A stretch of DNA of 64,000 nt. Source: a virus. The stretch lies in the IMG/VR virus record IMGVR_UViG_3300032164_000006, positions 1-64,000 of that record; one strand, 5' to 3'. Below, in pieces: positions 5,571 to 62,791 of this stretch. Numbering within the stretch: the first letter of the stretch is position 1; every line of letters begins with the position of its first letter. The notes beneath the pieces are model-generated. The model saw only the letters and a list, made by a program, of their open reading frames with translations. It was not told where the DNA came from and did no database searches. Position numbers and translations under genes: made by a program.

Positions 5571-5756
5571 ATGGACAAGGAAGTAGAAGAGGAGCGTAGG
5601 AAAAGAAAGAATGCAGACGTCATTAGCAGAATGCGAAGTGGTGATCCGCTCGTCCTAATCCCTATTTCCGATACATGGTTTCCACCTAGACCTTTGGTTA
5701 CGAAAGATAGAGAGAGCATAAAAAAACTCTATGGTACAAAAGATGATGATGAATAA
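5571..5756 (+). CDS. Small hypothetical protein (61 aa)
   Basis: Begins immediately after the portal stop and overlaps the start of the minor head protein gene. It is highly charged at both ends (EEERRKRKN at the start, KDDDE at the end) with a short hydrophobic middle containing LVLIPISDTWFPPRP. No family is recognised. The tight packing between portal and MuF genes suggests translation coupling and a possible head assembly role. Confidence 0.55.
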   Translation: MDKEVEEERRKRKNADVISRMRSGDPLVLIPISDTWFPPRPLVTKDRESIKKLYGTKDDDE

Positions 5757-46300: not shown

Positions 46301-49300
46301 TTCAGGGTTCTCTGGTCTATGGCTTCTACGACTCGGCTACAGGAAACTCTAGCAGTTCGTCTCTAGGATACCTAGACGTTAGGGGTGTCACAAAAATAAG
46401 TGGAAACGCATCGTTCAACGCTAGGTCTGAACACGTCTTCTATGGTGAGACATACATCGGTGGAAACCTATTTGTCTATAGTGCTGTAAACAACGTCACC
46501 GAGACAAAAATAAAGTTCCGTGGAAATGTTTCTGTAAACGGAGAGGTCACCCTAGCTGCTCCAACTGGAACCTCAGTTGTTGGTCAATACACTATAGAGG
46601 CGTATTCTGAATTTAGAGCTAGAGCTTTGAAGAAGGTATATTCCAACACCTACGCTTCGGTACGAGGGTACGGAAAAACAGATTACAGGATACCCAAAAT
46701 CTACGCCGACGGAGTTCTGGCAGATAAGCAAGTTTACTTTCTAATGTCTGATTCTGCTGGCCAAATGTCGTTGGAAACATATAAGAACACCAACGTAGAT
46801 GTGAAGCTGGCGAACGTTGGATTTACAGTTCTCAAGACGCTGACAGACGGACTAGCGTTAATGAGAAAATACAACTGGAATAACGACCAAGCCTATGTTG
46901 TGCAGTATGGTAGAGACGACTCGATGTACGACATAGTCGTAGATGCTTCTGGGAAAGGAGACTACACCTCCCTTCGTCTTGCGTTGTTGGCGGCTGGAGA
47001 AAACGACACAATATTCATTCGCAATGGTGTCTATAACGAAACAACTGATTCCCTGTACCTGAAGTCAGGACAATCAATCATAGGTGAATCTAGAGACGGA
47101 GTTATCCTTACCACTAGCACGACAAGTTGGTTTTTCAGTGCATATAACAGAATTGGTGGACTCTACTCGACATATCCAGCAACAAGCAACCTAGGCTTCG
47201 ACTCTGCTACTGGCATCGGTACTGTATCCATAACTAACGGATCAAGACTTGTAACATACACTGGAACAACACACCCATCCGACGGAAAAATAGCCTACAT
47301 CCTAGGTGACTGGTACACAATCAGCAACACCGACACAGTGAACAAGACGTTCAACGTGGATAGGGATATTTTCAAGAGAACACAGACGGGTCTACCTTGG
47401 AGATTTGCGACAACACAAGGAGGGGTAGACTACTCGGTCACACCAAACCAATTCCTGAGAATAAAGAACCTAACCTACAAAGCAACAACAGCGGCTTCAT
47501 TCTTGTATGCGAATGCGTGTGCAAACATTGAAGTAGAAAACGTAGATGTTATTTCTACAGCATGGAACAGCTCGTCAAACGCAATAATCTACGGACAAAA
47601 CATGACGAACGTTAGTGCTAGAAATATCCGCTTCTACAACAAGAACACAACTGCCGGAGCCGACGAACCGAACGTGCTCTATGTCTATGCTGCGTGGGAT
47701 TGCTCGTTTACGGAATGGGAAGTCTACGGTGGAAAATACATGAGAATGGATGGTTCCGCTGGAGCCGCGATGAACTACCACTGTAAGGTCCACTTCAGTA
47801 GATTCGAAAGCGACGCTCTAATGTGGCTGTCTCTAGGCTTCTGTCAGGAATGTGATTTTTCGTTTGGCGTTATAAATTGCAATCAGTTCTGTCAGAGCGA
47901 ATTCAACTTCCACAAGTGTCGGCTAGATTTCTTCGAAACAAGAATGTTTGGGGGTAGCTCATATATCCGAGGACAAGACAACATAGTCAACTTTGGGAAT
48001 ATGTATCTCGACGGTGCTTCTTTCTACGTTAATAAGGCTCAAGCATCTGGGTATCTTTCCAAAAACATTCTTGTATCTGGAAACGTCATTGGAACTGGAA
48101 CACTCTATCTAGACGACAGCGTGTACCTAGGAGACAGCGTCTACGTCCAAACTTTGGGTGGAACAGCTCCAGCACGAACACCAACACCAAGAACAAGTGC
48201 TGTTGTTTTGGATGCTGCTGGAGGAGGCGACGCAACAACGCTCGCAGCTGCGATAACCAAGGCTGGAAACTACGGATCAATCTTTGTTAGAAACGGAACG
48301 TACACCATGTCTAGTGGTGTCAGCTTATCTATTGGCCAAACAATCTTAGGTGAGTCCAAGAACGGAGTTATCCTAGAGTTTACTGGTGGATATATCTCAA
48401 TGCCATATCCAGTTTCATACAACATAGGAACTAGCTTCACAAACGGAGATCCAAGAACACCGAGCACAACCTACGCTTGCGGATTTCTGACGCTAACCAC
48501 AAGTTCCAGAACCATTGCATACTCTGGAGACATCGCTCCAACTGTAGGCAATATTCTACGAGTACAGGGCGAATGGTTCGAGGTCATGACTGTAGATAGT
48601 GGTGCGAAAACATTCACAGTAGACAAAGACGTTCGTCACGCTCCGTTCTCCAATGTTTGGTGTAAATTCTACCAAAAACAATATGGAGTAAACATATCCC
48701 AAAATCCATCTATCAGGTCTTCTATTAAAAACCTGACAGTGAAAATGACGTCAGGAAACATGGCGATAAACGTGGGTTCTTGCTGCGACGTAGAGGACGT
48801 TGACATTATAGACGTTGCAGCTAGTGGATACGGTGGAATGTTGCAAGGTGGGCAAGGGATTTGCGACACGAACGTGCGTAGGGTAAAAATCATAAACGCA
48901 AACATCAACTCTGGTGCAACAACAACATATCTGCGAGCAATATATTTGAGTGGAGCACAAGATTGTACCTTCGAGAACATAGAGTGTCACCACACCAACA
49001 ATGACATGATAGGTGGAGCTAGTTTCAACAATCCAGTGATAAACTGTAAATTCCACTTTCTGCGTAAAGTTGGATCAGGTCCAGCGTTCCAACCACTCGG
49101 CTACATGACAGAGTGTGACCTGACAATAGACTTCATGGAACACACCAACCTCCAAGACGTCAGCGCCTCTTGCTGCCTATATAACTGTCGGGTTAAGTTT
49201 GGCCAATCCAGATTCACTGGAAACGTCTATATGTATTCCCTAGGCTCTACATTCGACCTAGGTCATATGTGGAACGTCGGCTACGCTTATGTCATTAGTG

Positions 49301-52005
49301 GTTCACCAACAAAGACCCCACTCAACAAAGTAAACTCTGGACGGCTATATGGCTCCACAGCTTTAGAAGGTCTACTCAGCGTCGATGCATCTGTTATCCT
49401 AACCGACAACATCCAAGTAAACCAACTTTCTGGAGCACCATACTCGTCCCCAACAAAAAAGATGTGGACTATTGTTGCTGCAGACGGAACTGGCGACTAC
49501 ACGAGCATCAGCTCTGCTTGTTCTAACATGCCAGAGGGAACTACATTTTTCATAAGAAACGGAGCCTACACCGAAGGTGTAATTTCTGCAAAAGCAGGAC
49601 AGAAATTCATAGGGGAATCAAAGGCTGGAGTCCGAATAACGGCTTCTAGTGGTGTGCTGTTCCAGCCAACTGGATACTATGCTGGTGGATGGCGTTCGTC
49701 TCTCAACTCGACAACATACGAAGAATTTTCATCGACAGAAAACCTCGGTCTAGCTTCGACAACCCACAACAGTACGACAGTCTCGTACAGCGGAACAGGT
49801 TCGAACCCATCTGCGAACCAGTATGTAAGGATGTGCGGAGAGTGGTACAAGTTAATCAGCGTAGACACGGGTCTAAAAACATTCGTAATAGACAGAGCGT
49901 TTACAAAAGGAACCTACACCCAAATTCCAGTGCTTATGATGTCATTAAATACCGGATTCTACGAACTCCACACTTATCAAAGTGGTGGAATGGAATTCAA
50001 AAACATGACCATACTTTCTGGAACGCAAACCAACTTCCAAGGCTTCAACATCACATCGCAGGTTGGTCTTGTTATAGAAAACATAGACGTCATCGGTGAG
50101 AACGCCTCGGCTGGTTTCACTCCATTCTACCTGTACTCTTGCGTAGGGATGAGAATGAGAGATTGCGGACAGTACGCTATGGGAACAACAACACTCAACT
50201 CAAAGTCTCAGATAACATCTGGATGGGAAAACGTAATAGAAAATCACGTTATCTTTGGTGGATACCAAACAGAGATCTACGGCTCTGCACAGTCTCCAGC
50301 ATATAGGTGCAAGTATCACTTCAGAAACATCACTTGCACCGATGCAATGTTCCAATTCTTTAGGGCAATGTATGAGTGCGAGATTGAAGTTGAGCGTGGA
50401 CAAGCCGAAAGAGTTACATCTCAGACAGGAGACGCTCCATCTAGGTGTGTATTCCGCTTTGGAAAGATACGCACAACCCAAGGAAGCATAATCAAGAGTA
50501 TAGGCTGTCAGTTCCATATTGGAGATTGGATTGATAGTGCTGGATCTACGTTATCGCTCGGAAAAGGTTCTAACGGAGTCAGCTTTACTCCATACAACAA
50601 GTTGATGTCTGGAAACTTTGGCGGAGCGTTGTCAGTTGACGGAAGTGTTGTAATAACAGATGGATTCCAATACACCGGAACTCTAACCGGAACTCCAGCC
50701 TACAAACCTATTCTTAGTGCTGCTCCAAAACAATATGACTATGTTGTAGATCCTGCTGGAGGGGGAAGCCACACAACAATCCAAGCTGCTGTCGCCGCTG
50801 CTATAGACGGGAAAACCATATACGTTAGGAACGGGAACTACGACATGCTAGGTGTTTCCGCATCGGCAGCTAATGGCTTGTCTATTATCGGTGAAACAAT
50901 GGACGGTGTGAGAATCTCATCTAGTTCGGATATGTTCGGTGTTTCTGGGGGAGGCCTCATGATGCGAGCTAGAACACAGCTGATAGCAAACCAGACAACC
51001 TTTGATACCACAACCAATATTGGAACTGTGACTGTAACGAACGGGAGTACAGCCGTTGTTTACACTGGAGATCTTACTGGAATTAGCGGCTCAATCACAA
51101 TAGGGGATGCTATTGCTCTAGGCTCGTCTGAGTTGTATTCTGTTGCTGGAATAAACACAGGAACAAAAACAATCACACTCAATACGGCATACATTGGAGC
51201 CTCTGGTGCTGGACTACCATGTTTCATAACATTCGGTACTCCTACAAACTTAACGAGATCATGTTTCACTCTGAAAAATGTAACTCTCATTTTGACTGCA
51301 GGAAACCAATGTATCCAAGCAAATAATGCCTACAAATTGCATCTCGAAAACATCACATGTTTCCATGCAAACACAGGCGGATCTGGTCTTGTTACGATGC
51401 AAAGTGGATTCAGAAACAAATTAATCAACGTCAGGACAATTTCAACATCTGCTGCTGGATATGCTGCTTTCAATTGCACCGGAGCGTGGGGACTAGAATT
51501 TGTGAACGTTGAATGTGAAAGATCAAAATACAACTATTGGGGTGGTGGAACAACAATTCCTAGTCTGTATTGTGACCTCCACTTCAAGAGGATTACAGAA
51601 TCACCTGCTCTATTTTTCCTAGGATGGGGTGGTCAAGCATTCTGTTCACTTGTGATAGACCATATTGAGGGGTGTCGTGGTGGGTTCATGCAAGATGGCG
51701 GTGGAACAGCTGAAGACCTATGGCATTTTTATGTGGAAATAAAACGTATGTCGAATTGTGCTGGACAGATATCTCTGTTCGGTAGGAATGTAACATTCGT
51801 TGGTGGGCATCTACATCATGCTGGTTATTTCAGGCTTAAATCTAGGCAGGGTTCGACAAACAACGTGATGATGAGTGGGATGTTTACATCAATCCCAGCC
51901 AGCAATTTGGAGGTGGATAGCTCCACAATTATTTGTTCGGCTGTTAACTATCCGACAGGTGCTCTGTCTGGTAGTCCAAAACGCAACGATGGTTTCGCGT
52001 TCTAA
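43357..52005 (+). CDS. Giant tail fibre with four tandem pectin-lyase-like modules (2882 aa)
   Basis: The largest gene in the window, preceded by GAAGGAGCAGG. Residues 1-800 hold beta modules, two related to each other (WNGVAYVSLPGLQKERNTI and WDSAAYVSMPGLDFARNTI). Residues about 810-1150 form a Gly/Asn-turn beta-helix. Four modules of about 420 residues begin near 1190, 1612, 2034 and 2460, each starting VVDASGKGDYTSL-like, then TIFIRNGVYN-like, GQSIIGESRDGVIL-like, followed by a small insert ending KTFNVDRDI-like, then the beta-helix rungs. The pectin-lyase-like fold is common in capsule or LPS depolymerases; catalytic residues cannot be assigned here. Probably receptor-binding or glycan-degrading. 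Confidence 0.75.
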   Translation: MTHSNQILDRKNRAHVRSTVGENLENILDLVDDRLSYPMEVSIGGYTITIGSGLLQSAESNSLDGKSDSYRVGVPPLAGLETKPVVSSLVLNTGAYDGDFEVPTNPTLTPNQYIRMGIELRPDGKYYAVFGTPSALLTGCGYPPFAIGASIQIMVIDLQDSGSGGNWSYKVPAKKDVIVFNNPSAGGGGTPNAKLMGGGVWAASNNLGDTQLEWNGVAYVSLPGLQKERNTIQPDIISLAEDEAAYVILNKLAGPNEDLVVQKDLFVNIFPYNPNLFLIARGFAGGVLVGNSCFSLIHGESKELDTGMSIQNRQLLGSDVDETTSVPEYSLRGAPERTLDDTQPVLEALSSVDAEIDKFFGQLRIIPHESDTNKIRITGVDFTMKDGSILSQEIASLLLKFDGAVVNLTTGGVFASNGTTPIGINFTPATIPLSSYNWYSIGLVANTITANGAMTAQLIVLSGGPNTSSSATTIPSFAGSKKVGLVQVQNSGGSIVRTAIRQLGAGTGSGGGISNAKLINGGKFYWTGEIESVSSNSVSPNSVNINNMFSDWNAWQTFVAVGSGLTKFSSTAFSRSNSGVTGVLRGYLYAVNQSTGLPIATLLATSINTVPIETLETQSSVKQYTPVTFNFSGETLVPGTRYCVLVKVVSISGGWIAPYINNTNPLPNEKAGIQFSGLSETVGMDINMSVGQLGVGTLSWDSAAYVSMPGLDFARNTIPVGSSSLGLDEALYVKVSTLDGVAANLTVERGNITDISPYDSSIFIFAVKTAEGVVVGDTLLAAGQSRKLDDNRVFTFNSSSPATLTTLTSTKYVGGYYFPLGGRIKSGVVIYGNVVSDGNLTIETNVTIFGSVTTNGNNLEFDSTYASANETIKIYGDLLSGWTYFTSATNSRQHTLTVYGSVTAGSFYLDTLNSTSDMLSIEVKRSFITSEFSAYTKTNNSVTVAAITVRGDLICSQGLTIKHLETSTAQGYRTTIGGNLIVQGSLVYGFYDSATGNSSSSSLGYLDVRGVTKISGNASFNARSEHVFYGETYIGGNLFVYSAVNNVTETKIKFRGNVSVNGEVTLAAPTGTSVVGQYTIEAYSEFRARALKKVYSNTYASVRGYGKTDYRIPKIYADGVLADKQVYFLMSDSAGQMSLETYKNTNVDVKLANVGFTVLKTLTDGLALMRKYNWNNDQAYVVQYGRDDSMYDIVVDASGKGDYTSLRLALLAAGENDTIFIRNGVYNETTDSLYLKSGQSIIGESRDGVILTTSTTSWFFSAYNRIGGLYSTYPATSNLGFDSATGIGTVSITNGSRLVTYTGTTHPSDGKIAYILGDWYTISNTDTVNKTFNVDRDIFKRTQTGLPWRFATTQGGVDYSVTPNQFLRIKNLTYKATTAASFLYANACANIEVENVDVISTAWNSSSNAIIYGQNMTNVSARNIRFYNKNTTAGADEPNVLYVYAAWDCSFTEWEVYGGKYMRMDGSAGAAMNYHCKVHFSRFESDALMWLSLGFCQECDFSFGVINCNQFCQSEFNFHKCRLDFFETRMFGGSSYIRGQDNIVNFGNMYLDGASFYVNKAQASGYLSKNILVSGNVIGTGTLYLDDSVYLGDSVYVQTLGGTAPARTPTPRTSAVVLDAAGGGDATTLAAAITKAGNYGSIFVRNGTYTMSSGVSLSIGQTILGESKNGVILEFTGGYISMPYPVSYNIGTSFTNGDPRTPSTTYACGFLTLTTSSRTIAYSGDIAPTVGNILRVQGEWFEVMTVDSGAKTFTVDKDVRHAPFSNVWCKFYQKQYGVNISQNPSIRSSIKNLTVKMTSGNMAINVGSCCDVEDVDIIDVAASGYGGMLQGGQGICDTNVRRVKIINANINSGATTTYLRAIYLSGAQDCTFENIECHHTNNDMIGGASFNNPVINCKFHFLRKVGSGPAFQPLGYMTECDLTIDFMEHTNLQDVSASCCLYNCRVKFGQSRFTGNVYMYSLGSTFDLGHMWNVGYAYVISGSPTKTPLNKVNSGRLYGSTALEGLLSVDASVILTDNIQVNQLSGAPYSSPTKKMWTIVAADGTGDYTSISSACSNMPEGTTFFIRNGAYTEGVISAKAGQKFIGESKAGVRITASSGVLFQPTGYYAGGWRSSLNSTTYEEFSSTENLGLASTTHNSTTVSYSGTGSNPSANQYVRMCGEWYKLISVDTGLKTFVIDRAFTKGTYTQIPVLMMSLNTGFYELHTYQSGGMEFKNMTILSGTQTNFQGFNITSQVGLVIENIDVIGENASAGFTPFYLYSCVGMRMRDCGQYAMGTTTLNSKSQITSGWENVIENHVIFGGYQTEIYGSAQSPAYRCKYHFRNITCTDAMFQFFRAMYECEIEVERGQAERVTSQTGDAPSRCVFRFGKIRTTQGSIIKSIGCQFHIGDWIDSAGSTLSLGKGSNGVSFTPYNKLMSGNFGGALSVDGSVVITDGFQYTGTLTGTPAYKPILSAAPKQYDYVVDPAGGGSHTTIQAAVAAAIDGKTIYVRNGNYDMLGVSASAANGLSIIGETMDGVRISSSSDMFGVSGGGLMMRARTQLIANQTTFDTTTNIGTVTVTNGSTAVVYTGDLTGISGSITIGDAIALGSSELYSVAGINTGTKTITLNTAYIGASGAGLPCFITFGTPTNLTRSCFTLKNVTLILTAGNQCIQANNAYKLHLENITCFHANTGGSGLVTMQSGFRNKLINVRTISTSAAGYAAFNCTGAWGLEFVNVECERSKYNYWGGGTTIPSLYCDLHFKRITESPALFFLGWGGQAFCSLVIDHIEGCRGGFMQDGGGTAEDLWHFYVEIKRMSNCAGQISLFGRNVTFVGGHLHHAGYFRLKSRQGSTNNVMMSGMFTSIPASNLEVDSSTIICSAVNYPTGALSGSPKRNDGFAF

Positions 52006-52427
52006 CTGTCTTCAGTTTGTTCTTCACTCTACTTTCGGAGAAACTGAGGTTTGCCGACAGTTAGAGGAAAGACCCTAACTGTCTTCAGTTTGTTCTTCAC
52101 TCTACTTTCGGAGAAACTGAGGTTTGCGGACAGTGGTTGGAAAGACCCTAACTGACTAGAACTACAGAATGAAGGACCTTTTGCGGACAGTTAAGAAAAA
52201 GACCCTAACTGTCTTCAGTTTGTTCTTCACTCCACTTTAGAGGAAACTGAGGTTTGCCGACAGTTGAGTGAAAGACCTTAACTGACTAGAACTACAGAAT
52301 GAAGGACCTTTTGCGGACAGTTAGAGGAAAGACCCTAAGTGTCTTCAGTTTGTTCTTCACTCTACTTTGAGTGAAATTGGCGTTTGCCGACAGTTGAGAA
52401 AAAGACCCTAACTGTCTTCTAAAAATG
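52001..52427 (-). repeat. Right hairpin-repeat array (inverted copy of 1412-1851)
   Basis: Read on the minus strand from 52427 inward, the modules are H-X-H-Y-H-X-H-Y-H-X-H-X-partial H, the same order as the left array. X units lie at 52014-52052, 52087-52125, 52217-52255 and 52347-52385; Y units at 52155-52182 and 52285-52312; H units fill the gaps. The outer edges are identical for 27 nt (52401-52427 against 1412-1438). One X (52347-52385) has a perfect 7-bp inner stem, TTCACTC with GAGTGAA on the minus strand. The array begins at the stop of the giant fibre gene. No open reading frame of interest is inside. Confidence 0.95.
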
Positions 52428-52429
52428 CT

Positions 52430-52449
52430 TTACCATTCTAACTTGGTAA
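52430..52449 (+). other. Small stem-loop beyond the right array
   Basis: TTACCA (52430-52435) pairs with TGGTAA (52444-52449) across 8 nt, just outside the array edge. No T tract follows. It may be part of the array's folded border or a weak attenuator. The rest of the gap to 52568 is AT-rich and holds the promoter candidate listed next. Confidence 0.4.
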
Positions 52450-52508
52450 TGGCTTCCAAACTCACCAAAAAGCACATCCTATTCAACATCTACATTCTTC
52501 CTCTAGAT

Positions 52509-52537
52509 TTTTTAAAACAATTTGGTTAAGATATACT
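52509..52537 (+). promoter_or_regulatory. Promoter candidate for the lysis/host-interaction unit
   Basis: TATACT (52532-52537) is a good -10 element. At 17 bp spacing the -35 position reads TTTTTA (52509-52514), which is weak. It lies 31 bp upstream of the start of the 52569 gene, after the right array, so it could restart transcription there. A proper test needs transcription start data. Confidence 0.4.
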
Positions 52538-52568
52538 CACACCCAATCAGAACTTTGCGAGGACGCAG

Positions 52569-53483
52569 ATGTTGGATCTTATCAAGGCTAGAATTAGCAG
52601 ACTTGAAGAGGTATGTCCGACTATAGAAGTTGGAAACGCCTCGTATCCAACAAAGGGTGGTGACGACGACTGCCTATGGCTTGGTCTACTTGCATCGGTT
52701 GGCTATCAACCAGCAATGGACGGTGTGTTTGAATGCCAGAAGAGAGTTGGGGAGCAAGAAGGTTTATTCCTTGGAAATCCAAAGCTGGCAGCAAACGAAA
52801 AACAAGATCAATCAATCTTCTCTAGCGACATGGCTCTAGGCGTGTTGTGTTGGCTTGTGTCGTCGGAATACTCTGGTCGGAGTGTTCTTGCGGCTGAATT
52901 GTGGCTGAAATGGATAAATAAGAACAGACGGTGTTTGATACCAAATCCAAAAATTTTTGGAGGCGGCTGTCTGCTCCACGGTGGGTACAGATACGCACCA
53001 AGCAAAGACAAACGCTCTAACATCACACCTACAATGTGGTCTTTGATGGGTAGAGTTTGGGATCACAGAGGGTTAGAGCCACACAAGATGATGGAATTTG
53101 CCGAAGGGACTTTCGCTATAGTAGAGGATGAAGTTTCTGTTCTAGAAGCAGAATTTTGTGCCCTAGGCTATCAGCTACACCTAAAGGCTGTTCAAGCATA
53201 TATTAAGCTCCAGATTCAACAGTCGACAGAGTGCAGAAAGAAAGTGACAAAAATGTGTCACGCACGTTTACCAGCAAACCTATTCTACAAAGTCCTTTAC
53301 CAAGAAGGTGCATCGAAAGAAGACATGGAAGTTTTCTTGACAATGTTGCCGAACCCAATGACCTTTCGCCCACAGAACTATTGGTTGTGGGAGAGAGAAG
53401 ATTATACGGAAGCGGTAAGACAAGGAAATATGTGTGGATGGGACATGGTGTTCCTAGGGAAGTTAATTCTCCAATTCACATAA
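52569..53483 (+). CDS. Unknown enzyme-like protein (304 aa)
   Basis: TTGCGAGGACG precedes the ATG. The N-terminal GGDDDCLWLGLLASVGYQPA and the later QDQSIFSSDMALGVLCWLV recall a family of helical-toroid proteins seen, from memory, in bacterial and phage genomes, perhaps glycosidase-like, but no function is known to me. Cysteines are frequent. No signal peptide is present. It is placed between the fibre gene and a secreted protease, so a role in lysis or host envelope degradation is possible. Confidence 0.5.
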   Translation: MLDLIKARISRLEEVCPTIEVGNASYPTKGGDDDCLWLGLLASVGYQPAMDGVFECQKRVGEQEGLFLGNPKLAANEKQDQSIFSSDMALGVLCWLVSSEYSGRSVLAAELWLKWINKNRRCLIPNPKIFGGGCLLHGGYRYAPSKDKRSNITPTMWSLMGRVWDHRGLEPHKMMEFAEGTFAIVEDEVSVLEAEFCALGYQLHLKAVQAYIKLQIQQSTECRKKVTKMCHARLPANLFYKVLYQEGASKEDMEVFLTMLPNPMTFRPQNYWLWEREDYTEAVRQGNMCGWDMVFLGKLILQFT

Positions 53484-53577
53484 TAGCCAAAATTTTAAAA
53501 AGATAAATATTGAATTCCCATCCCATGTAGATGGTAAAATTACTCATGACATTACTTTCACCAAGAAGGAGAAGAGT

Positions 53578-54456
53578 ATGTTCAAGTGGATAACAACCCT
53601 AGTGCTGGTTCTGGTCGGGTGTGGTTCGTCAATTGGATTGGCGAAAACCACGTTCATGGAAGAAAACGACCTCTACAGAGAGGACACAATGTTCTTGTCG
53701 AACATGCAAGAAAACGAGTTCTACGACATCTTAAATGAAGTCCAAGGACAGTTTGGGTGGATCTCACAGCAAACTGGAATGAGACTTGAAATTATAGGTG
53801 AATGGGATAACTCGGAAGTGAACGCCTACGCAAACATCGAAGGAAATGTTCGTAAGGTGGTTATCTATGGTGGTCTTGCTAGACGACCAGAAGTAACTCT
53901 CGACGGGCTGTCGCTTGTTGTGTGCCATGAACTCGGGCACCATATCGCAGGATTTCCATTCTACGCTGGACAAGGTCAGTGGGCTTCTAACGAGGGTAAC
54001 AGTGACTATTTTTCAACTCTAGGGTGTGGTCGGATTCTTTGGAACGGAAAAGCAGCTGAAAATGCTGAATTTGCAGCCATTGTTCCACAATATCCGAAAA
54101 GTCTTTGCGACAAGGTATGGTCAGGCGAGGGTGACAGAAATCTTTGCTACAGAGCAATGGTTGCTGGAAAATCTTTGGGGGACCTACTTGCAAGACTTGG
54201 CGGTAGAACTGTGAATTACGAGACACCAGACAGACGCATCGTAGCGAAAACGTCTGACTCACATCCACAGGCTCAGTGTCGCCTTGACACCTACATGCAA
54301 GGAGCACTTTGCACAGGGACATGGAGGCATGGAGCAATCCCTAGAACAGAGCAGCAAGCCTTCGCTAGTTCGTGTCCATCAAACAAATGGTTCGGCTATC
54401 GACCAAAGTGCTGGTTCAAACCATCTTTTGGAGTCAAGAAACCAAAGGCTGACTAA
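53578..54456 (+). CDS. Secreted lipoprotein zinc metalloprotease (HELGHH)
   Basis: 292 residues. It starts with a lipoprotein signal: basic MFKW, hydrophobic core ITTLVLVLVGC with lipobox LVGC and Cys15. VVCHELGHHIAGFP (114-127) contains the zincin motif HExxH (His117, Glu118, His121), and NEGNSDYFSTLGC (138-150) offers Glu139 as third ligand in gluzincin style. The C-terminal part is Cys-rich (HPQAQCRLDTYMQGALC at 229-245). It should act at the cell envelope or outside. GAAGGAGAAG precedes the ATG; TTGAAT and TAAAAT with a 19-bp spacer lie upstream. Host-derived acquisition is plausible. Possible roles are lysis, envelope remodelling or superinfection control. Confidence 0.75.
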   Translation: MFKWITTLVLVLVGCGSSIGLAKTTFMEENDLYREDTMFLSNMQENEFYDILNEVQGQFGWISQQTGMRLEIIGEWDNSEVNAYANIEGNVRKVVIYGGLARRPEVTLDGLSLVVCHELGHHIAGFPFYAGQGQWASNEGNSDYFSTLGCGRILWNGKAAENAEFAAIVPQYPKSLCDKVWSGEGDRNLCYRAMVAGKSLGDLLARLGGRTVNYETPDRRIVAKTSDSHPQAQCRLDTYMQGALCTGTWRHGAIPRTEQQAFASSCPSNKWFGYRPKCWFKPSFGVKKPKAD

Positions 54457-54473
54457 CTTCTGGGGAAACAAAC

Positions 54474-54815
54474 ATGGATAGCCTACTGAATGGTCAGTCT
54501 CTGGTAACAGTCACAATTGTGATTGTGATTGTTACTCTATTAAAAATTATAGAATTTTTAATAGAAAAAATATCGAGTGAGAAATCAAAATTAACAAGGG
54601 TTGAGCAAGAACAATTAAAGGAAATACACTCGCTCGTTTCTGCAAGAGACAACGACGGTATGCCTTTGTTCTACATCCCTAGGTCGTGGGCTGATCTGCA
54701 GCGAATCATGTTAGACAAGATGGAGAAGATAACCCATAGTCAAGAACGCACAACGTATGTGATGGAGACAATTATTAAGTCTCTAGAGAACTTATCTAAA
54801 ACAGGGGGAAGATGA
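54474..54815 (+). CDS. Single-pass membrane protein, lysis candidate (113 aa)
   Basis: GGGGAAACAAAC precedes the ATG. One strong N-terminal membrane segment (about residues 10-32: VTVTIVIVIVTLLKIIEFLI) is followed by a charged, helical domain with heptad-like spacing. It lies between the lipoprotein protease and a small helical protein in the same operon. A holin-like or membrane-tethering role is possible; one transmembrane helix alone does not prove a holin. Confidence 0.6.
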   Translation: MDSLLNGQSLVTVTIVIVIVTLLKIIEFLIEKISSEKSKLTRVEQEQLKEIHSLVSARDNDGMPLFYIPRSWADLQRIMLDKMEKITHSQERTTYVMETIIKSLENLSKTGGR

Positions 54816-54816
54816 T

Positions 54817-55179
54817 ATGGAACATAGTGCAGTAGAAAAAATGAGCATCGACGAACTCAAGGTTCTAGTTGGCTTTATCGCCAAACTTGGAGGCACGACA
54901 TGGGAGATTATGGAAGATGGAAAGGTTGGAATACGCGACCTCCCGCAACTGTGGACCATCCTTCGAGCGGCTCAAGCAATTGTTCAAGTAAACTACGGGA
55001 AAGTGGCTCTTGAACTAGGTGATCTATCTGATGAGGAAAAGGATGAGTTAGGTCAAATTTTCCGTGATGGTTTCAGTGGACCAATAGAGGACATCGAGCG
55101 TACATTAGAATGTGTTGTTACTGTCGCCATTGAGCTATACGACCTCGTCACCCGACTAGTAAAGCTCTTTAAACGATAA
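54817..55179 (+). CDS. Small helical protein in the lysis-like unit (120 aa)
   Basis: Preceded by GGGGGAAGATGAT. Helical with a conserved-looking GDLSDEEKDELGQIF segment and a basic C terminus (RLVKLFKR). Similar small proteins with an acidic DLxxEEK motif occur near holin genes in other phages, from memory. No signal peptide or clear membrane helix is seen. It is the last gene before a strong terminator. Confidence 0.55.
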   Translation: MEHSAVEKMSIDELKVLVGFIAKLGGTTWEIMEDGKVGIRDLPQLWTILRAAQAIVQVNYGKVALELGDLSDEEKDELGQIFRDGFSGPIEDIERTLECVVTVAIELYDLVTRLVKLFKR

Positions 55180-55208
55180 GCTGTATTCGGTCTTTGATCT
55201 CCGAGACT

Positions 55209-55258
55209 GCACACCTATATTTTGGCTGCCATGCCATTCTGTAGGTGTGCTTTTTTTT
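55209..55258 (+). terminator. Strong intrinsic terminator ending the lysis-like unit
   Basis: GCACACCTA (55209-55217) pairs with TAGGTGTGC (55242-55250), followed by eight Ts. The 24-nt loop itself can pair TGGC with GCCA. It separates the late genes from the replication genes downstream. The 98 bp that follow are AT-rich with a TTGCAC hexamer that could be part of a weak promoter; no strong -10 is visible. Confidence 0.92.
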
Positions 55259-55356
55259 AAAAAAAGCCTTGCACTATTTTACCCATTGGTGTAAATAACC
55301 ATAACATACGTTAATACACTTTTCCGCACAGGCGAAAATACGTTTTAGGATTATGG

Positions 55357-56817
55357 ATGTTTATTGAAATCAGAGAACAGTTATTTCTACGTTCAACCAA
55401 TACAGAAATCACAAATGAGATTAAGTCGCTTCTGGACAAGCCAAATCCAGACTACCTAAAGCTCAAGCGTATGGGTTATCCAACAGAAAAAGTACCACCA
55501 AGAATAAGAATGTACGAGATTGACGAAGGTGTCGTTATTGTGCCTAGGGGTGCGTGGCGAACAGTCAACGAGGTATGCAAGAAACATGGTGTGCAGGTCA
55601 GTTACGAGGATAACAGAACAGTAGTTGACGAGATGGAGATTGAGATAAGCGAAGAGTTGACGCCTTTCTGGTATCAAGAAGAAGCCATAAATAAAATGAT
55701 TAAGTTCCAGCAAGGCATGGTCGTAGCACCGTGTGGAGCGGGAAAATCCGTTATAGGATGTGCGTTCATTGCAAGGCTACGCAAGCCAACTATCATAGTT
55801 GTCCACACGCTAGAACTATTCAAACAGTGGGAAGACATGGTGCGTGAGCACCTTAATTTTCCTGGAAAAATAGGAAAGATTGGTGGCGGCACGAAAACCC
55901 TAGGCAACATAACCATAGCAATGATCCAAACGCTAGTGAAGTCATCCCCAAAAGAATGGAGCGAAATACAATCCAAGTTTGAAATTTTCATAGGAGACGA
56001 ATCTCACCACTTCGGTGCCGAGTCTTATATCAAGTGTATGCGGAACATCAGGGCGAAATATGCCATAGGATTGACAGCCACACCAAAACGAAAAGACAAG
56101 AAAGATTTCGTAATCCACAATTATCTAGGCAATGTAATCTACGAGATAACGGACAGTGACCTTGAAATGATGGGACGTTCGCTGACGTGCAAGTGCAAGA
56201 TAGTTGAGACAAAAAGAAATTATAACTACACAAAAATGAATGAGATGCTTCCAGTATTAGGGACAGTGATAGCAAAAGACAAAACAAGAAATGAAATTAT
56301 AGTTGAAAAAATAAAAGAGGATATAGATGACGGTAGGACTGTACTTGTTCTTATCGAGCGTGTTGCCCACGGAAAAATACTATATTCTCTATTAAAACAA
56401 GAACAAATAAAAGTTGAATTGATTTCAGGTGCTGTTGACGCTAATACAAGAAGCAAGATTAAAAGCAAAATGAAAACTGGACAATTAGAGGTGTTAGTAG
56501 CGAACAAGGCAATTGCCGCAGAAGGCTTAGATATACCCATTATAGATTCAGTTCACATATGTTTTTGGACAAGCAACGTATCGCTAGTGAAGCAAATGAT
56601 AGGTAGAGGGAGAAGACCTTACGAGGGTAAGGAATTCTGTAGAGTTTGGTTCTATAAAGACAATGTTTGTAGAACAGAGTTAGATGGTAATTTTCGTGAG
56701 GTGCTTCGTGAAGTGCCAACGTTCAAGTATTCGTTTAGTAGATTAACTTCGTGGTTGGAATCTCAGTCATTTACAGTGGTAAATGACAGAGACCACAACA
56801 TGAAGGAGCTTTTTTAG
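55357..56817 (+). CDS. SF2 DEAD-like helicase (UvsW / XPB-like)
   Basis: 486 residues. Helicase motifs: Walker A APCGAGKS (124-131), DESHH (214-218, DExH type), TATPKR (240-245), AAEGLDIP and QMIGRGRRP in the C-terminal lobe. An N-terminal region of about 100 residues precedes the core. Phage relatives such as UvsW unwind branched DNA in recombination and origin processing. The ATG at 55357 is used; a near ATG at 55353 is out of frame. It opens the replication block. Confidence 0.87.
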   Translation: MFIEIREQLFLRSTNTEITNEIKSLLDKPNPDYLKLKRMGYPTEKVPPRIRMYEIDEGVVIVPRGAWRTVNEVCKKHGVQVSYEDNRTVVDEMEIEISEELTPFWYQEEAINKMIKFQQGMVVAPCGAGKSVIGCAFIARLRKPTIIVVHTLELFKQWEDMVREHLNFPGKIGKIGGGTKTLGNITIAMIQTLVKSSPKEWSEIQSKFEIFIGDESHHFGAESYIKCMRNIRAKYAIGLTATPKRKDKKDFVIHNYLGNVIYEITDSDLEMMGRSLTCKCKIVETKRNYNYTKMNEMLPVLGTVIAKDKTRNEIIVEKIKEDIDDGRTVLVLIERVAHGKILYSLLKQEQIKVELISGAVDANTRSKIKSKMKTGQLEVLVANKAIAAEGLDIPIIDSVHICFWTSNVSLVKQMIGRGRRPYEGKEFCRVWFYKDNVCRTELDGNFREVLREVPTFKYSFSRLTSWLESQSFTVVNDRDHNMKELF

Positions 56818-56830
56818 CAGGTAAAACCAC

Positions 56831-56860
56831 AACATCTTTTTTTACGAAAAGATGTTTTAA
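56831..56860 (+). terminator. AT-rich hairpin after the helicase gene
   Basis: A perfect 10-bp stem, AACATCTTTT (56831-56840) with AAAAGATGTT (56847-56856), a 6-nt loop, then TTAAAA. The T tract after the stem is short, so it may act as a partial terminator or as an mRNA end-protecting hairpin. Confidence 0.6.
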
Positions 56861-56885
56861 AAAAATCATTCTCGGAAGGTAGTTT

Positions 56886-57239
56886 ATGACTTTTTCTAGG
56901 TCCATCTACGGTGCATCCTTTTGTCTAAATAACAAGTTTGGAACAATCCTACAAGGACATTTACGCACCCTGTCTGATTATTCACGGTCCTACATATCTA
57001 CGTTCATACTACTGCGTAGCAGTAGTGTGAACTGTGTAGATATATATGATCCACAAAATATTCCAGCCAGTGTTCAAATCCCCTTGTCGAATAGACCGCT
57101 CGCGTGTGCGTTGATCCACCCAAGGCAACCTAGGGCAATGTACCTTTCGGCACACACTTTCCAAAAGCACAAAACACACCCTAGGCTGTCTGCAAACTGT
57201 TTGGGGTGCGTGGGTATTGGTTCCCTAGTGTGCGGATAA
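56886..57239 (+). CDS. Doubtful ORF (117 aa), possibly non-coding region
   Basis: The ATG has GGAAGG about 7 nt upstream, so translation is possible. The product is atypical: many Ser, Cys, His and Pro residues, no recognisable fold, and a composition unlike the neighbouring proteins. The same DNA contains a very long hairpin and G/C-rich stretches. I list it as a low-confidence gene because the region otherwise has no other + strand gene. A structured RNA is an equally good reading. Confidence 0.3.
   Translation: MTFSRSIYGASFCLNNKFGTILQGHLRTLSDYSRSYISTFILLRSSSVNCVDIYDPQNIPASVQIPLSNRPLACALIHPRQPRAMYLSAHTFQKHKTHPRLSANCLGCVGIGSLVCG
56994..57043 (+). ncRNA. Candidate structured RNA: long hairpin
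   Basis: The 22-nt arm 56994-57015 pairs with 57019-57043 around a GTA loop, with one G-T pair and a 3-nt bulge (TGT). Core of the stem: TACTACTGC with GCAGTAGTG, then GTTCA with TGAAC, then ATATCTAC with GTAGATAT. This is far longer than hairpins elsewhere in the window and is not followed by T residues, so it is not a terminator. It could be the core of an untranslated RNA or an RNase III site. Confidence 0.45.
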
Positions 57240-57266
57240 CTACGTTCCTGTTTTGGAGGTTTTTCT

Positions 57267-57689
57267 ATGGCTACAAAAACAATTTCCAGCCAAGCAACGT
57301 GCAAGGCAATTTGCTTGAAACTGGTTGGTGACATTTCTATTAAAACGAAAATTGCTTCTGAAGATTTGTATGGTTTTTTAAAGATTTTAAAACTGAACTT
57401 AACTTCTCATAAGGCAAAAAGATTTCTAATAATTTTGTCGACAAGTGATCCAGAAACAGTTGTCGATGCCTATTACACCTACGTTGAAACTATGGCGAAA
57501 TATAACCACGACGATACGACTGCAAACGTGCGGAGATTTAGCTCTTATCTGCTTTCTTCTAAAAGCAAATCAATTGACCTAGGTGAGGAACTGAGAACAA
57601 CCTACGGAATGTACGACCACACTGAAAGTGAGGTGAGTGCTTCCGAGTTAGACTACTGCATTGGAGTAATGGAAGATGAGGACTGCTGA
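57267..57689 (+). CDS. Hypothetical protein of replication block (140 aa)
   Basis: TTTTGGAGG gives a strong ribosome site. It is helical with basic N-terminal and acidic C-terminal halves. The end overlaps the start of the DnaC-like loader by 14 bp, indicating coupled translation. It could be a replication accessory factor. I recognise no family. Confidence 0.6.
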   Translation: MATKTISSQATCKAICLKLVGDISIKTKIASEDLYGFLKILKLNLTSHKAKRFLIILSTSDPETVVDAYYTYVETMAKYNHDDTTANVRRFSSYLLSSKSKSIDLGEELRTTYGMYDHTESEVSASELDYCIGVMEDEDC

Positions 57690-58434
57690 AGAGATATATG
57701 AACTGCAAGATTGTCCACGCTGCAACAACACGAGGCGTGTGTCGTATGAAGATCCATGTCTAGGGATGCGTGAAAAACAGTGTCAGTGTGTTGACTACAA
57801 GAAACGAGTGGCAATACTGAAGAGAGCTAGAATACCAAAAACATATTTGTGCTACGAACTAGGCGACTACAAATCTGAGATTGGGGACGAGAGTTGTTGG
57901 GGACCAAACAAAGAAAATTTTCGACGGCTAGTTAAGGCAAGCGACAACCACAAGACAGTGTTGCACGAGGCAATTGACCTTCTGATCTATGGAGGGGTGT
58001 CGTGTGGGAAAACCATGCTTGCGACAATTCTTTTAAAGAACTTGATATTAAAGCATGGCTATACAGGTGTCTTTGTGACAGCCGACGAGCTGGTAACACT
58101 TGCCATGGATAAGACAAGATTTGGGGTTGAAAACGACTTCACGCTAGAAAGTTTATTAGATGTAGATTTTGTTGTTGTGGATAACTTTCATAGGGTTGTG
58201 GATTTAGACGAAGCTAGGGTGAGCGGAACAGTGAAGATTATTTTAAATGACTTCTTCCAGCAAAGAAAACACAATGGGAAATCTTTCATACTGACGTCGC
58301 ATAGTTCTCTGCGTTCTCTGCTACAGAAGCAAAGATTTGTCGATAACCTAGCCTACACAGTTGTCGGGTTCAAGTTTCAGGGAAATTGTGGTGCTGACGT
58401 TAGAAAAAGAAAAGAAGAATCTCTAGGTCTATAA
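57676..58434 (+). CDS. DnaC-like helicase loader ATPase with N-terminal zinc motif
   Basis: 252 residues. CPRC (13-16) and CQC (36-38) form a probable N-terminal zinc site. The AAA+ core has Walker A GGVSCGKT (106-113), Walker B FVVVDNF (165-171) and a sensor-like FILTSHSS segment. Loaders of this DnaC/IstB type place DnaB on DNA. The gene lies just upstream of the DnaB-like helicase, which fits the role. Confidence 0.83.
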   Translation: MRTAEEIYELQDCPRCNNTRRVSYEDPCLGMREKQCQCVDYKKRVAILKRARIPKTYLCYELGDYKSEIGDESCWGPNKENFRRLVKASDNHKTVLHEAIDLLIYGGVSCGKTMLATILLKNLILKHGYTGVFVTADELVTLAMDKTRFGVENDFTLESLLDVDFVVVDNFHRVVDLDEARVSGTVKIILNDFFQQRKHNGKSFILTSHSSLRSLLQKQRFVDNLAYTVVGFKFQGNCGADVRKRKEESLGL

Positions 58435-58443
58435 GGATGGTAT

Positions 58444-59892
58444 ATGGGATTTACAGTTAGGGAAAAGAGGCAAGAAAAACACGTTGAGAATAGTGTTGGA
58501 GACGACAAGGAAGTTAAGCGAATTATTCCTATCGACAGCAACAATGAGCAATTTATTTTAGGACACGCAATTAACGACGGCAAAGTGTTGGAGGTGCTTT
58601 TAAATGAGGTGGATGCCAGTACGTTTCTGTACACCAACCACCGAGCATTGTTCGAGTGTTGCCAGTATCTTTACAATAGCAAGGTGAAGGTGACACCAGA
58701 CTCGATAGACGTTGTAAAGAAAAGATTTAGAGGCGGAGAAACCCTACGACTCGACTATATAACAGAACTTGTGGCTGTTTTTGGCGACAATGTTGCTGAA
58801 GAAAACTACAGGTTCCATGTTTCCAAGTTGAAGGACGACAAGATAAAAGAAACCTTGTCGATGAACCTGTTACCCGAGCTGACTAGGTCGATGCTTAATA
58901 GCAGCACGACCACAGAAAATATTATAGAAAAAATAAATAAAATGATGTCGATGCTGGAGGATGGCAGAACCGACGGAGACTTCAAGTTTATTCCTATGGT
59001 GGACGTAGATGAGATCCACACGAAAGAGAACACAGCTAGGGAAACTGGCAGCTCGTTCGGAACGACAGGCTATGGCAAGCTAGATAGGTTTTTGACGGAT
59101 GGCCTAGGTGCAACAAAAATGACAATTGTAGCGGGACGTCCCGCTATGGGTAAATCTGCGTTGGTCGCAAATATGCTTTTGCGTCTTGGGTTGTTGGGTA
59201 TTCCTGTTGCGGTATTCAACTTTGAGATGGACTGCATAAGCATGTACGACAGGTTTGTTGCTATTAGAGCAAACTTGCCGATAACGAAACTGATACGCAA
59301 TAGAGACAAGATGACGCCAACCGAGCGGATGCAAGAGCAGAAAGCAAAGGATGAAATCAGCAAACTGCCAATCTACTTCTATACGGCGAGTACGCAAAGC
59401 ATGGAAGGAATAAAGCGGGACATTCGCATACTGAAGGAACGCTATGGTGTAAAGATTATAGCCTACGACTTGTTCGATAAAATACGCTTTAAATATAGTG
59501 GTAACAGGAGTACTGCTGACATTCTAAATGAAAGTTTGAAAATAATACAGGGGTTCGGCCGCGACTTCGATATCCACCAGATCCTAGTTGTGCAGATTGG
59601 TCGTAGTGCGGAAAAACGCAAAAATAAACGACCAAAGTTAAGTGAGTTGAAAGACGCTGGAGGATACGAGGAACGTGCCGACAACGTCTTTTTTCTATAC
59701 AGGCCGAGTTACTACGACAGTCCAGAAGAGGAGGGAGATGCAGAATGCGGTATTGAGAAGAGCGAGGATGTGGAGATTATAATTGCAAAGCAAAGGCAGG
59801 GAACGTCGAACGTAAAGGTGACGTTAGATTTCTGGCCAGCGACAACGACTATAGCTGAACCAATTCTTACGAGTTCTGATGGAGCAATGTGA
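58444..59892 (+). CDS. dnaB: Replicative DNA helicase, DnaB-like
   Basis: 482 residues. N-terminal DnaB domain (about 30-130, with EQFILGHAIN and TNHRALFECCQYLY). The RecA-like C-terminal core shows Walker A GRPAMGKS (231-238), the NFEM segment (259-262), and later VVQIGRSAEKR and SELKDAGGYEERAD. It unwinds DNA at the fork. The ATG at 58444 follows AAGGATGG. Its stop overlaps the next start (TGATG). Confidence 0.9.
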   Translation: MGFTVREKRQEKHVENSVGDDKEVKRIIPIDSNNEQFILGHAINDGKVLEVLLNEVDASTFLYTNHRALFECCQYLYNSKVKVTPDSIDVVKKRFRGGETLRLDYITELVAVFGDNVAEENYRFHVSKLKDDKIKETLSMNLLPELTRSMLNSSTTTENIIEKINKMMSMLEDGRTDGDFKFIPMVDVDEIHTKENTARETGSSFGTTGYGKLDRFLTDGLGATKMTIVAGRPAMGKSALVANMLLRLGLLGIPVAVFNFEMDCISMYDRFVAIRANLPITKLIRNRDKMTPTERMQEQKAKDEISKLPIYFYTASTQSMEGIKRDIRILKERYGVKIIAYDLFDKIRFKYSGNRSTADILNESLKIIQGFGRDFDIHQILVVQIGRSAEKRKNKRPKLSELKDAGGYEERADNVFFLYRPSYYDSPEEEGDAECGIEKSEDVEIIIAKQRQGTSNVKVTLDFWPATTTIAEPILTSSDGAM

Positions 59893-60128
59893 TGGGATTT
59901 ATAATTAAAAAAGATGTGATTGACAAGAAAGAGATTGCAGAAAGTTTTATAACTGCATTTGAGTTAATAGGCTTTGCCGACGCAAAGCAAACAACTGTGA
60001 TAACTGACATGGAAAAGTTTTGGAGGCAGAGGAAAACGCTGTCTAGAGCACAGTGTGATTACCTGAATGGGATAGTGCAGAATTTAAGGAAAAAAGTATG
60101 GACTTTGAAACGGTCAGCGAGAATATAG
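59892..60128 (+). CDS. Small hypothetical protein between helicase and primase (78 aa)
   Basis: ATG 59892 overlaps the helicase stop; a GTG at 59889 is an alternative. It is helical with a basic C terminus (NLRKKVWTLKRSAR) and overlaps the primase gene by 31 bp. The tight packing suggests translation coupling and a replication-related role. No family is recognised. Confidence 0.55.
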   Translation: MGFIIKKDVIDKKEIAESFITAFELIGFADAKQTTVITDMEKFWRQRKTLSRAQCDYLNGIVQNLRKKVWTLKRSARI

Positions 60129-61081
60129 ATATACAGAGGTTTCTGTTTACAGACCTTCGTGTAAGGTACATAGGTGTGTCGGGCGACAACTACATTATCG
60201 AGTGTCCAGATCCAACGCACGTCGACAGACACCCTAGCTGTTACTTCCACAAAAAAACACTCGTCTATCATTGTTTTGGGTGTGGTGCTAGAGGCAGTAT
60301 TATTGACCTCGTTTCATATAACAGGGATATAGATAGAGGTGAAGCAACAAAGCTGATACAGAAACACGCTGGCATGGCAATGAACTCCGTATCAAATTCA
60401 TTTAAAGGACGCTACAAACTTAAGGACATACCAGAAGTTAGATTGAGTAGCCAGTATAGAAGGGATTGGGAAAATGCGAGAAGTGAGATCCAGGAATTCG
60501 TTACACGGAGGCGTTTTAGTCTCCCTCTATTCGAGTCTTATTATATTGGTTATAACAATGCTATGGGTTCCATTACTATGCCTATCATTTACCATGCTGA
60601 TCTCATTAATGTCGGTGAAAGGTTTGTACTCGGTGATCAAATCACTAAGATTAAGTATAGGAAGGACGTCCCTCTTTCCATGAGCATCTGGGGAATTTTC
60701 GATGGCTACAATCCTGTAGATCCATACTTTACAGAAGGGATATTTGATGCAGTACGGATGCGTGAGGCTGGACTCAATGCCTACGCTTTGCTGAGTATTG
60801 TGTTACCCAATGCAAAGATACGTTTTATTCAAGACCACTTTGAGGGTGTGTTCACTATTGTTCCAGACCCAGATCAGGGTGGAAGAAAGATGATAGAAAA
60901 CTGGAAAAGGGTGATGCACACAAACGAAGTGAGAATTATGCAACCAACCAAAGGCGACATTGACGAGACACCAATAGATGAGATTAGGGAATTAGTGCAT
61001 CGCACGACACGGATGCAGGACCATATTTTCAAGGGATTTAGAATAAAAAATGAGATTTGTGGAGGTGTAGATGCAAGATAA
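60098..61081 (+). CDS. DNA primase (CHC2 zinc finger plus TOPRIM)
   Basis: 327 residues. The zinc-binding motif has Cys36, His41, Cys59 and Cys62 (CPDPTHVDRHPSC; YHCFGCGARGS). The TOPRIM part shows Glu213 (YFTEGIFDAVRM) and the Asp pair near 257-259 (IVPDPDQGG). It makes RNA primers for the helicase-linked fork. AAGGAAAAAAG precedes the ATG. It is shorter than bacterial DnaG because the helicase-interaction domain is reduced or absent. Confidence 0.88.
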   Translation: MDFETVSENIDIQRFLFTDLRVRYIGVSGDNYIIECPDPTHVDRHPSCYFHKKTLVYHCFGCGARGSIIDLVSYNRDIDRGEATKLIQKHAGMAMNSVSNSFKGRYKLKDIPEVRLSSQYRRDWENARSEIQEFVTRRRFSLPLFESYYIGYNNAMGSITMPIIYHADLINVGERFVLGDQITKIKYRKDVPLSMSIWGIFDGYNPVDPYFTEGIFDAVRMREAGLNAYALLSIVLPNAKIRFIQDHFEGVFTIVPDPDQGGRKMIENWKRVMHTNEVRIMQPTKGDIDETPIDEIRELVHRTTRMQDHIFKGFRIKNEICGGVDAR

Positions 61082-61928
61082 AACAACGTACCTGATTGAC
61101 CTTTCCAACATGGCCTACAGGAACATGTATGGGGTTCGCTTAAAGACAAAAGAAGGGATGCCAAGTGGTCATGTTTTTGGCACCATAAGAAACCTATTGG
61201 CACTGAGAAAGAACACTCACGACTACGAGTTGGTGTTCGCCCTAGACAGCAAACCACGTCGGAAGCTGGAGCTAGACCCAACGTACAAGGCAAATAGGGC
61301 AAGAGCAGACGGGGAGTTCAACCCAACACCCGACATTCGTAAGATGGTGAGGTATCTAAAGTGTACTTGCATTTATAACGAGGATGAGGAAGCAGATGAC
61401 GTGATTGCCTCGTACATTGCCAGAAATCCAAACGAGTCTATCACAATTGTTTCATCGGATGCCGACCTATACCAACTGATAGACAGGGAGCGTGGTGTGC
61501 GACAGTACAATCCACTAGATAATGCTTTCATAACGTCGGACGACCTCCACAGAAAGTTCGGGCTATCGCAGTTTAGGAAAGTAGCACTATGGAAAGCACT
61601 GTTTGGCGACAGCGGCGACAACGTGAAACCACCAATACCAAGATTAAAGAAAGCGGATTTGATAGAGGCGATAGAGCTATGCGACTGCACTGTGGATATG
61701 TTCATGGATATATTGGAACGGTGTGATGGGAAGACAGTGGAAAAGATACAGAGTGATCCACAGTTTAGAGCCAAACTACAAAAGAATCTGGAATTGGTGG
61801 AACTGAAGCGGGACCTAGAATACGTGGTCGAGGAGCACAGCGGAAACGCAAACTTCTTGAATTGTTTTTTAAGAAAATTTGAGTGTGAGAGTCTGATTAA
61901 CGCAGATTTAGAAAGGATACTGGTTTGA
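61071..61928 (+). CDS. 5'-3' exonuclease (FEN / T4 RNase H-like)
   Basis: 285 residues. FEN-type metal ligands: Asp10 (YLIDLSNMAYR), Asp59 (FALDSKPRRK), the acid cluster NEDEEADD (103-110), and Asp130 and Asp132 (SSDADLYQL). The helix-3-turn-helix region (GDSGDNVKPPIP) is also present. It removes RNA primers and flaps during lagging-strand synthesis. Overlaps the primase gene by 11 bp. Confidence 0.87.
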   Translation: MQDKTTYLIDLSNMAYRNMYGVRLKTKEGMPSGHVFGTIRNLLALRKNTHDYELVFALDSKPRRKLELDPTYKANRARADGEFNPTPDIRKMVRYLKCTCIYNEDEEADDVIASYIARNPNESITIVSSDADLYQLIDRERGVRQYNPLDNAFITSDDLHRKFGLSQFRKVALWKALFGDSGDNVKPPIPRLKKADLIEAIELCDCTVDMFMDILERCDGKTVEKIQSDPQFRAKLQKNLELVELKRDLEYVVEEHSGNANFLNCFLRKFECESLINADLERILV

Positions 61929-62248
61929 GTAATTCATTTTATGACCAAGAAAATTTGTCGAAGTTTACGCTTAATTTAGACTTCTCGTCTATTGTTCGCC
62001 TTGAGGAGATTGCCCTATCTTTAAGACGCTTAGGATACACGAGAATGAGCCGTGGATTTCTTATCTCCGCTGCATCTAATCACATTGTGAATGTGTACGA
62101 GCGTGGTGGAATGGAAGCGGTGATGGAAATAATACAGGTACACCTTGATAAGTTTTCCGAGCTGAAGGGGTTGACGAAAAAGGAAGATAAGAAGGACGAG
62201 GAGAAGCCGCAAACAGTATTGAGGCGAAGGAAAGACGATGTTATATAG
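61925..62248 (+). CDS. Hypothetical protein, TTG start (107 aa)
   Basis: TTG 61925 overlaps the exonuclease stop and follows AAAGGA at 8 nt, so it is the probable start. The protein has a helical middle (RLEEIALSLRRLGYTRMSR) and a very charged C terminus (KKEDKKDEEKPQ). It overlaps the next gene by 11 bp. The role is unknown; its context is replication. Confidence 0.55.
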   Translation: MSNSFYDQENLSKFTLNLDFSSIVRLEEIALSLRRLGYTRMSRGFLISAASNHIVNVYERGGMEAVMEIIQVHLDKFSELKGLTKKEDKKDEEKPQTVLRRRKDDVI

Positions 62249-62786: not shown

Positions 62787-62791
62787 AACAA

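Follow-up and report, generated by a model that had tools for sequence, protein, structure and literature searches.

The window, by which we mean the whole 64,000-base stretch of DNA analysed here (bases 1–64000 of a 72,056-base virus record), contains a gene for a putative exported zinc metalloprotease located 3′ of an orphan 304-aa gene, which itself follows the tail fibre gene. The genome is that of a contractile-tailed phage, as it includes genes for a tail sheath, baseplate, tape measure, portal and large terminase; a gp5-like spike, DnaB and primase are also encoded, together with RecA/UvsX-like and DNA polymerase genes that were read by eye. The tail fibre-like ORF (43357–52005) specifies 2882 aa with several internal repeats of a beta-helix-like block (VVDxxGxGDYTSL...IFIRNGxYxE), and a DUF932 protein is encoded at the contig start (361–1143). 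The features of the protease locus are as follows.

52569–53483, forward strand: 304-aa protein, encoded after the tail fibre gene and before the protease (ORF).
53566–53571, forward strand: Shine-Dalgarno sequence AAGGAG, 6 nt 5′ of the ATG start codon of the protease (read in the sequence).
53578–54456, forward strand: predicted exported zinc metalloprotease of divergent M48 HP-plug type, 292 aa (ORF, motifs, homologues and AF2 model).
53578–53652, forward strand: signal region with lipobox LVG-C15 (Cys codon 53620–53622) and an alternative signal-peptidase-I (SPI) site after GLA (sequence and PROSITE-like scan).
53926–53943, forward strand: HELGHH (H117–H122), putative active-site helix (HExxH in 101 of 101 homologues; a helix in the model).
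53989–54012, forward strand: NEGNSDYF (138–145), with E139 as predicted third zinc ligand and D143, in the next helix (101 of 101 homologues).
54262–54282, forward strand: HPQAQCR (229–235), the HPx4R motif of the M48 active-site plug (pattern of PMC7950410; 72 of 77 homologues).
54474–54815, forward strand: 113-aa protein with a soluble tail and a single membrane helix at its N terminus, 17 nt downstream of the protease (ORF).
54817–55179, forward strand: 120-aa conserved small protein in the same direction as the protease (ORF and sister-phage comparison).

A sister phage (L002/G011) has the protease gene in an identical gene order. The two proteases share 92.8% amino acid identity with a dN/dS of about 0.135, comparable to that of the adjoining genes, and the gene is under purifying selection. 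The 113-aa protein, with a dN/dS of 0.07, is a candidate holin- or i-spanin-like partner, although neither it nor the 120-aa protein matches any family; nothing in Pfam, PHROGs, NCBIfam, INPHARED or IMG/VR patterns matches the 304-aa protein. Elsewhere in the sister genome the helicase gene (L002:2107–4392) specifies 761 aa, as against 486 aa in the window (55357–56817), the difference being a 275-aa intein-like insertion (CLVGSTVI...VCHN before Cys) placed exactly within the Walker A motif (PCGAGKS); the window allele has no such insertion.

There are several prominent features of the protease. First, the ORF, the lipobox and the HELGHH and NEGNSDYF segments, all picked out in an initial annotation made without database searches, are present in the sequence as described, and the motifs are not fortuitous because H117, E118, H121, E139 and D143 do not vary in any of the 101 homologues aligned, a set that includes 30 phage copies; R235 is also invariant across this set. 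Second, the cysteine-rich character of the C terminus, remarked on at the same time, is real, in that C116, C150, C177, C190, C234, C245, C266 and C278 are each kept in between 94 and 101 of the 101 homologues, and these eight mature cysteines would fit a disulfide-bonded extracytoplasmic protein. Third, residues H229-P230-x4-R235, a feature missed in the earlier annotation, complete H-E-x-x-H-x(30,140)-H-P-x(4)-R, the defining pattern of the HP-plug proteases of family M48 (PMC7950410), with a gap of 107. The full pattern is found in 72 of 77 homologues, and arises by chance in 0.7% of cases when the tail of the window protein is shuffled. The earlier proposal of a secreted gluzincin-like zinc protease is thus well founded, and motifs, invariance and pattern refine it to the M48 HP-plug type.

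Database comparisons show how divergent this member is. M48 (PF01435) is the only Pfam family matched by the window protein, but at 16.7 bits it falls below the cut-off of 20.3, so that the Pfam search recommended at the outset found the family without reaching its threshold; the alignment covers the active-site stretch only. A phage homologue in G010 exceeds the same cut-off (21.6 versus 20.3 bits), again over the active-site stretch only. Searches of PHROGs, NCBIfam and PDB sequences return no real family, the closest PDB sequence match being an HtpX fragment (E 0.65), and nothing comparable to the C-terminal part, with its eight conserved cysteines and its CRLDTY and RPxCWF motifs, turns up when Pfam, NCBIfam and PDB sequences are searched. 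An AF2 model built on 64 sequences (pLDDT 89.9) arranges its strands, HExxH helix and Glu helix in gluzincin order, with the Glu helix spanning residues 139–155 and including E139. When the model is used in a fold search of the PDB the top match is the M48 protease ZMPSTE24, weakly (E 0.0099, TM 0.28), with M61 and other gluzincins mixed in. Some homologues give sub-threshold matches to M12B, M6 and metzincin families; an invariant Glu as third ligand, together with HPx4R, led us to discount these labels. Since HExxH and E139xxxD143 are invariant, the HPx4R pattern is present, and the G010 homologue passes the Pfam cut-off, the protein can be classed from its sequence as a divergent gluzincin of M48 type, and no solved counterpart exists for its C-terminal half with the RPxCWF end; it is predicted to be catalytically intact. 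The Escherichia coli proteins BepA, LoiP, YcaL and HtpX have HExxH, the next-helix Glu ligand and HPx4R in the same order (PMC7950410). The window protein differs from this set in its sub-cut-off Pfam score and in having its own C-terminal cysteine part with CRLDTY and RPxCWF.

The N terminus has a short hydrophobic signal followed by a lipobox (LVG|C15) that satisfies a PROSITE-like rule, and an SPI reading (...GLA|K) is also possible. Lipidation is likely in the window phage but is not a family-wide trait, because the lipobox is retained in the sister phage yet present in only about one third of phage copies. By the same rule it occurs in 12 of 33 phage copies, several unrelated phages among them, and in 12 of 71 cellular ones (Fisher p 0.04, the rows not being independent); in most cellular relatives the corresponding place holds an SPI-type signal, and several of the cellular lipobox cases read equally well as SPI sites. 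The initial description of a lipoprotein is therefore partly supported, by a lipobox in the window protein, its sister and some other phages, but does not extend to the family. There are outer-membrane lipoproteins among the E. coli M48 HP-plug proteases, namely LoiP and YcaL (PMC7950410), and we predict that the window protein is probably lipid-anchored in the outer membrane.

The initial annotation called the gene rare in tailed phages, which is not borne out: tblastn searches of INPHARED with three different family members as queries find no copy in 50,697 catalogued phages, but 35 viral contigs in IMG/VR, a few of them near-duplicates, carry it. Phage hallmark genes are present in G007, G008, G009 and G010. 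Between the window phage and either G009 or G010 the protease is the sole shared protein, and with G007 and G008 (the latter compared in part) a remote helicase is shared as well; G008 and G009 are themselves relatives. In the tree, the phage copies form several clades among cellular protease homologues. A quick tree has seven changes between phage and cell, at least five of them forced by well-supported branches, and a test weakly rejects one common origin for the first six phage copies (p-AU 0.04). Because of this interleaving, and the weak rejection of a single origin, the tree indicates that hosts and phages have exchanged the gene on more than one occasion, in keeping with the lateral transfer originally surmised, and it has probably also passed between unrelated phages.

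Scanning GTDB genomes with the window sequence gives matches only in Bdellovibrionota and Oligoflexia-type MAGs, so that the resemblance to Bdellovibrio-like proteins noted in the initial annotation is substantiated; the nearest bacterial relatives of the window copy are in Pseudobacteriovorax, Oligoflexaceae and Silvanigrella MAGs. Profile searches covering two Bdellovibrionota-group phyla found homologues, often several to a genome, in 20 of 58 genomes of the Pseudobacteriovorax-group phylum; for the Bacteriovoracaceae-group phylum the figure is 199 of 291, with up to nine copies each. This secreted family is homologous to the window protein over its full length (29–48% identity) and has the identical invariant residues. 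The bacterial copies mostly have SPI signals and some have a C-terminal P-domain, typical of secreted proteases, whereas the phage copies are short and often lipobox-bearing. At the DNA level, all matches better than E 0.002 between window positions 44001–64000 and Bdellovibrionota_B genomes lie inside the protease gene. Host prediction, proposed earlier by way of spacers, was run by DNA comparison of two 20-kb parts of the window (the positions outside 20001–44000) with 56 Bdellovibrionota_B genomes and yielded no spacer- or prophage-like match, the protease gene alone matching apart from marginal matches. A plasmid search gave one partial Streptomyces match, annotated as M48. To judge from these sequence affinities, the hosts of the carrier phages are probably Bdellovibrionota.

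The gene neighbourhoods in other phages are informative as to function. Operon-like arrays of these genes occur in L126, L127, L135 and L140. In L126, L127 and L140 a T7-lysozyme-like amidase gene is followed by a papain-type protease gene and then by the M48 gene, with gaps of no more than 60 nt, and in L123 the amidase, which matches the T7 lysozyme family (E 8e-22), is directly upstream of the M48 gene; an endolysin gene thus lies with the M48 gene in four contigs (L123, L126, L127 and L140). The papain-type proteases of L127 and L140 have a lipobox. After the M48 gene there is a Staphylococcus-nuclease-like gene in L127, L135 and L140 and a second HExxH lipoprotein gene in L126; L135 carries a second full M48 copy, and nuclease-like genes lie near it in L120, L122 and G007. 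Other arrangements are also seen. In the G010 group the M48 gene is alone and reversed beside tail genes and a gene for a small one-helix membrane protein, which has no sequence likeness to the 113-aa protein of the window, and in G009 too it stands by itself in reverse orientation, with tail or terminase genes next to it. In L143 a polysaccharide-deacetylase-like gene (5686–6351, identified by eye) is directly 3′ of the phage M48 protease gene, and a papain-family (C1) protease is encoded elsewhere in the G009 genome (L045:12363–13172). We found no description of this recurrent M48 phage cassette in the open-access literature.

Because the gene adjoins that of a cell-bursting enzyme in some phages, the protein probably helps to break open the host, and we propose, at about even confidence, that it is a host-derived exported M48 HP-plug protease that degrades the envelope or lysate at lysis. 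Under this proposal the gene would have been captured from a Bdellovibrionota host and retained by the phage. The protease would be made during infection, cross the inner membrane by Sec, fold with disulfides in the periplasm and, in the window phage, probably become anchored in the outer membrane, where it would degrade envelope proteins such as outer-membrane barrels, lipoproteins, protein layers or debris. The outer layers would then yield along with the peptidoglycan at lysis and so release the progeny; in other phages of a probably shared host group it would act beside the amidase endolysin, papain-type protease and nuclease. The export signal, the catalytic set, the disulfide-type cysteines, purifying selection, recurrence in unrelated phages and the endolysin neighbourhood in other phages can be read from the sequences, whereas when the protease would act, on what substrate and at which step is inferred.

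There are precedents for parts of this scheme. The secreted protease Bd2269 of Bdellovibrio bacteriovorus lyses E. coli, a Gram-negative cell, from within and speeds exit from the prey (PMC12546842), the likeness being one of functional analogy only. In Listeria, a secreted metzincin pair derived from a phage (Mtz/Tim) confers greater sensitivity to phage lysis and more virion release (PMC8235301), so that an exported metalloprotease of phage origin boosts phage lysis there, as proposed here; it differs in being described as a metzincin rather than M48, in its Gram-positive host and in requiring a partner TIMP-like lipoprotein. The E. coli M48 HP-plug proteases serve in protein quality control, in contrast to the role in phage release that we suggest. 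A contribution to lysis was among the first suggestions for this gene, and it gains support from the endolysin adjacency in other phages, although no endolysin is recognised among the scanned genes of the window (small ORFs scanned in part); for the window gene we infer a lysis neighbourhood from those other phages. Two arrangements count against a lysis role: the gene follows one resembling a major capsid protein gene in the L137–L142 group, and the lone reversed genes of G009 and the G010 group look more like independently expressed cargo.

The main rival is a lipid-anchored protease for receptor removal or superinfection exclusion, which would act in the outer membrane to remove the surface protein serving as receptor, thereby preventing re-infection of the infected cell and keeping progeny from sticking to debris. 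The lipobox in the window phage, its sister and several unrelated phages would suit this, as would the often solitary gene in the opposite orientation beside tail-fibre genes (the G010 group). Surface lipoproteins that phages use for exclusion form an established class (Ltp, PMC3952083); its members are small lipoproteins that phages encode and that sit on the cell surface, as this protease would, but they are not described as proteases. We consider this explanation rather unlikely, in that known exclusion lipoproteins block and do not cleave, many phage copies have no lipobox, and cassettes with amidase and nuclease fit lysis better.

Alternatively, a secreted host protease could be carried as neutral or nutritional cargo, an accessory gene providing peptides to the infected cell with no role in release. 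It is of a host-type family with multiple chromosomal paralogues, and in several phages its position is solitary; we nonetheless regard this as improbable, since purifying selection, recurrence in unrelated phages and, in some, coupling to an endolysin argue for a phage-specific benefit. The initial annotation also raised action on a second cell, in which the host would be a predator and the phage protease would degrade the prey envelope or bdelloplast contents. Homologues are abundant in Bdellovibrionota, some of which are predators, and sets of protease and nuclease genes would suit digestion, but the closest relatives are the Pseudobacteriovorax, Oligoflexaceae and Silvanigrella MAGs, groups not known as established obligate predators, and neither spacer nor prophage matches were found in the comparison described above. 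As nothing found points to predation, this idea is without support and appears very unlikely. Finally, a virion-associated protease that aids entry deserves hardly any credence: in its favour, the window gene comes soon after that of the tail fibre and the G010 copy has tail genes as neighbours, but an export signal together with conserved cysteines suggests a periplasmic location and not assembly in the cytoplasm.

Returning to the preferred lysis role, we can extend it to a tentative and somewhat doubtful generalization, that proteolysis of the outer envelope is a general lysis step among phages of Bdellovibrionota, with a protease-based disruptor of the outer membrane replacing spanins or acting beside them, and with a host M48-type protease acquired repeatedly by unrelated phages, often lipid-anchored and in cassettes with an endolysin, papain-type protease and nuclease.

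The window protein is a divergent member of a known protease type in a proposed phage use that is undescribed in the open-access literature. The gene is recurrent in phages and linked to a phylum, while being found in none of the 50,697 catalogued phages, and as an exported protease adjoining an endolysin it is a candidate new component of lysis. Little is known about the phages of Bdellovibrionota, and the gene can serve as a marker in sequence data for phages probably infecting this group; it also opens to direct test the way in which phages get through the outer layers of such unusual cells.
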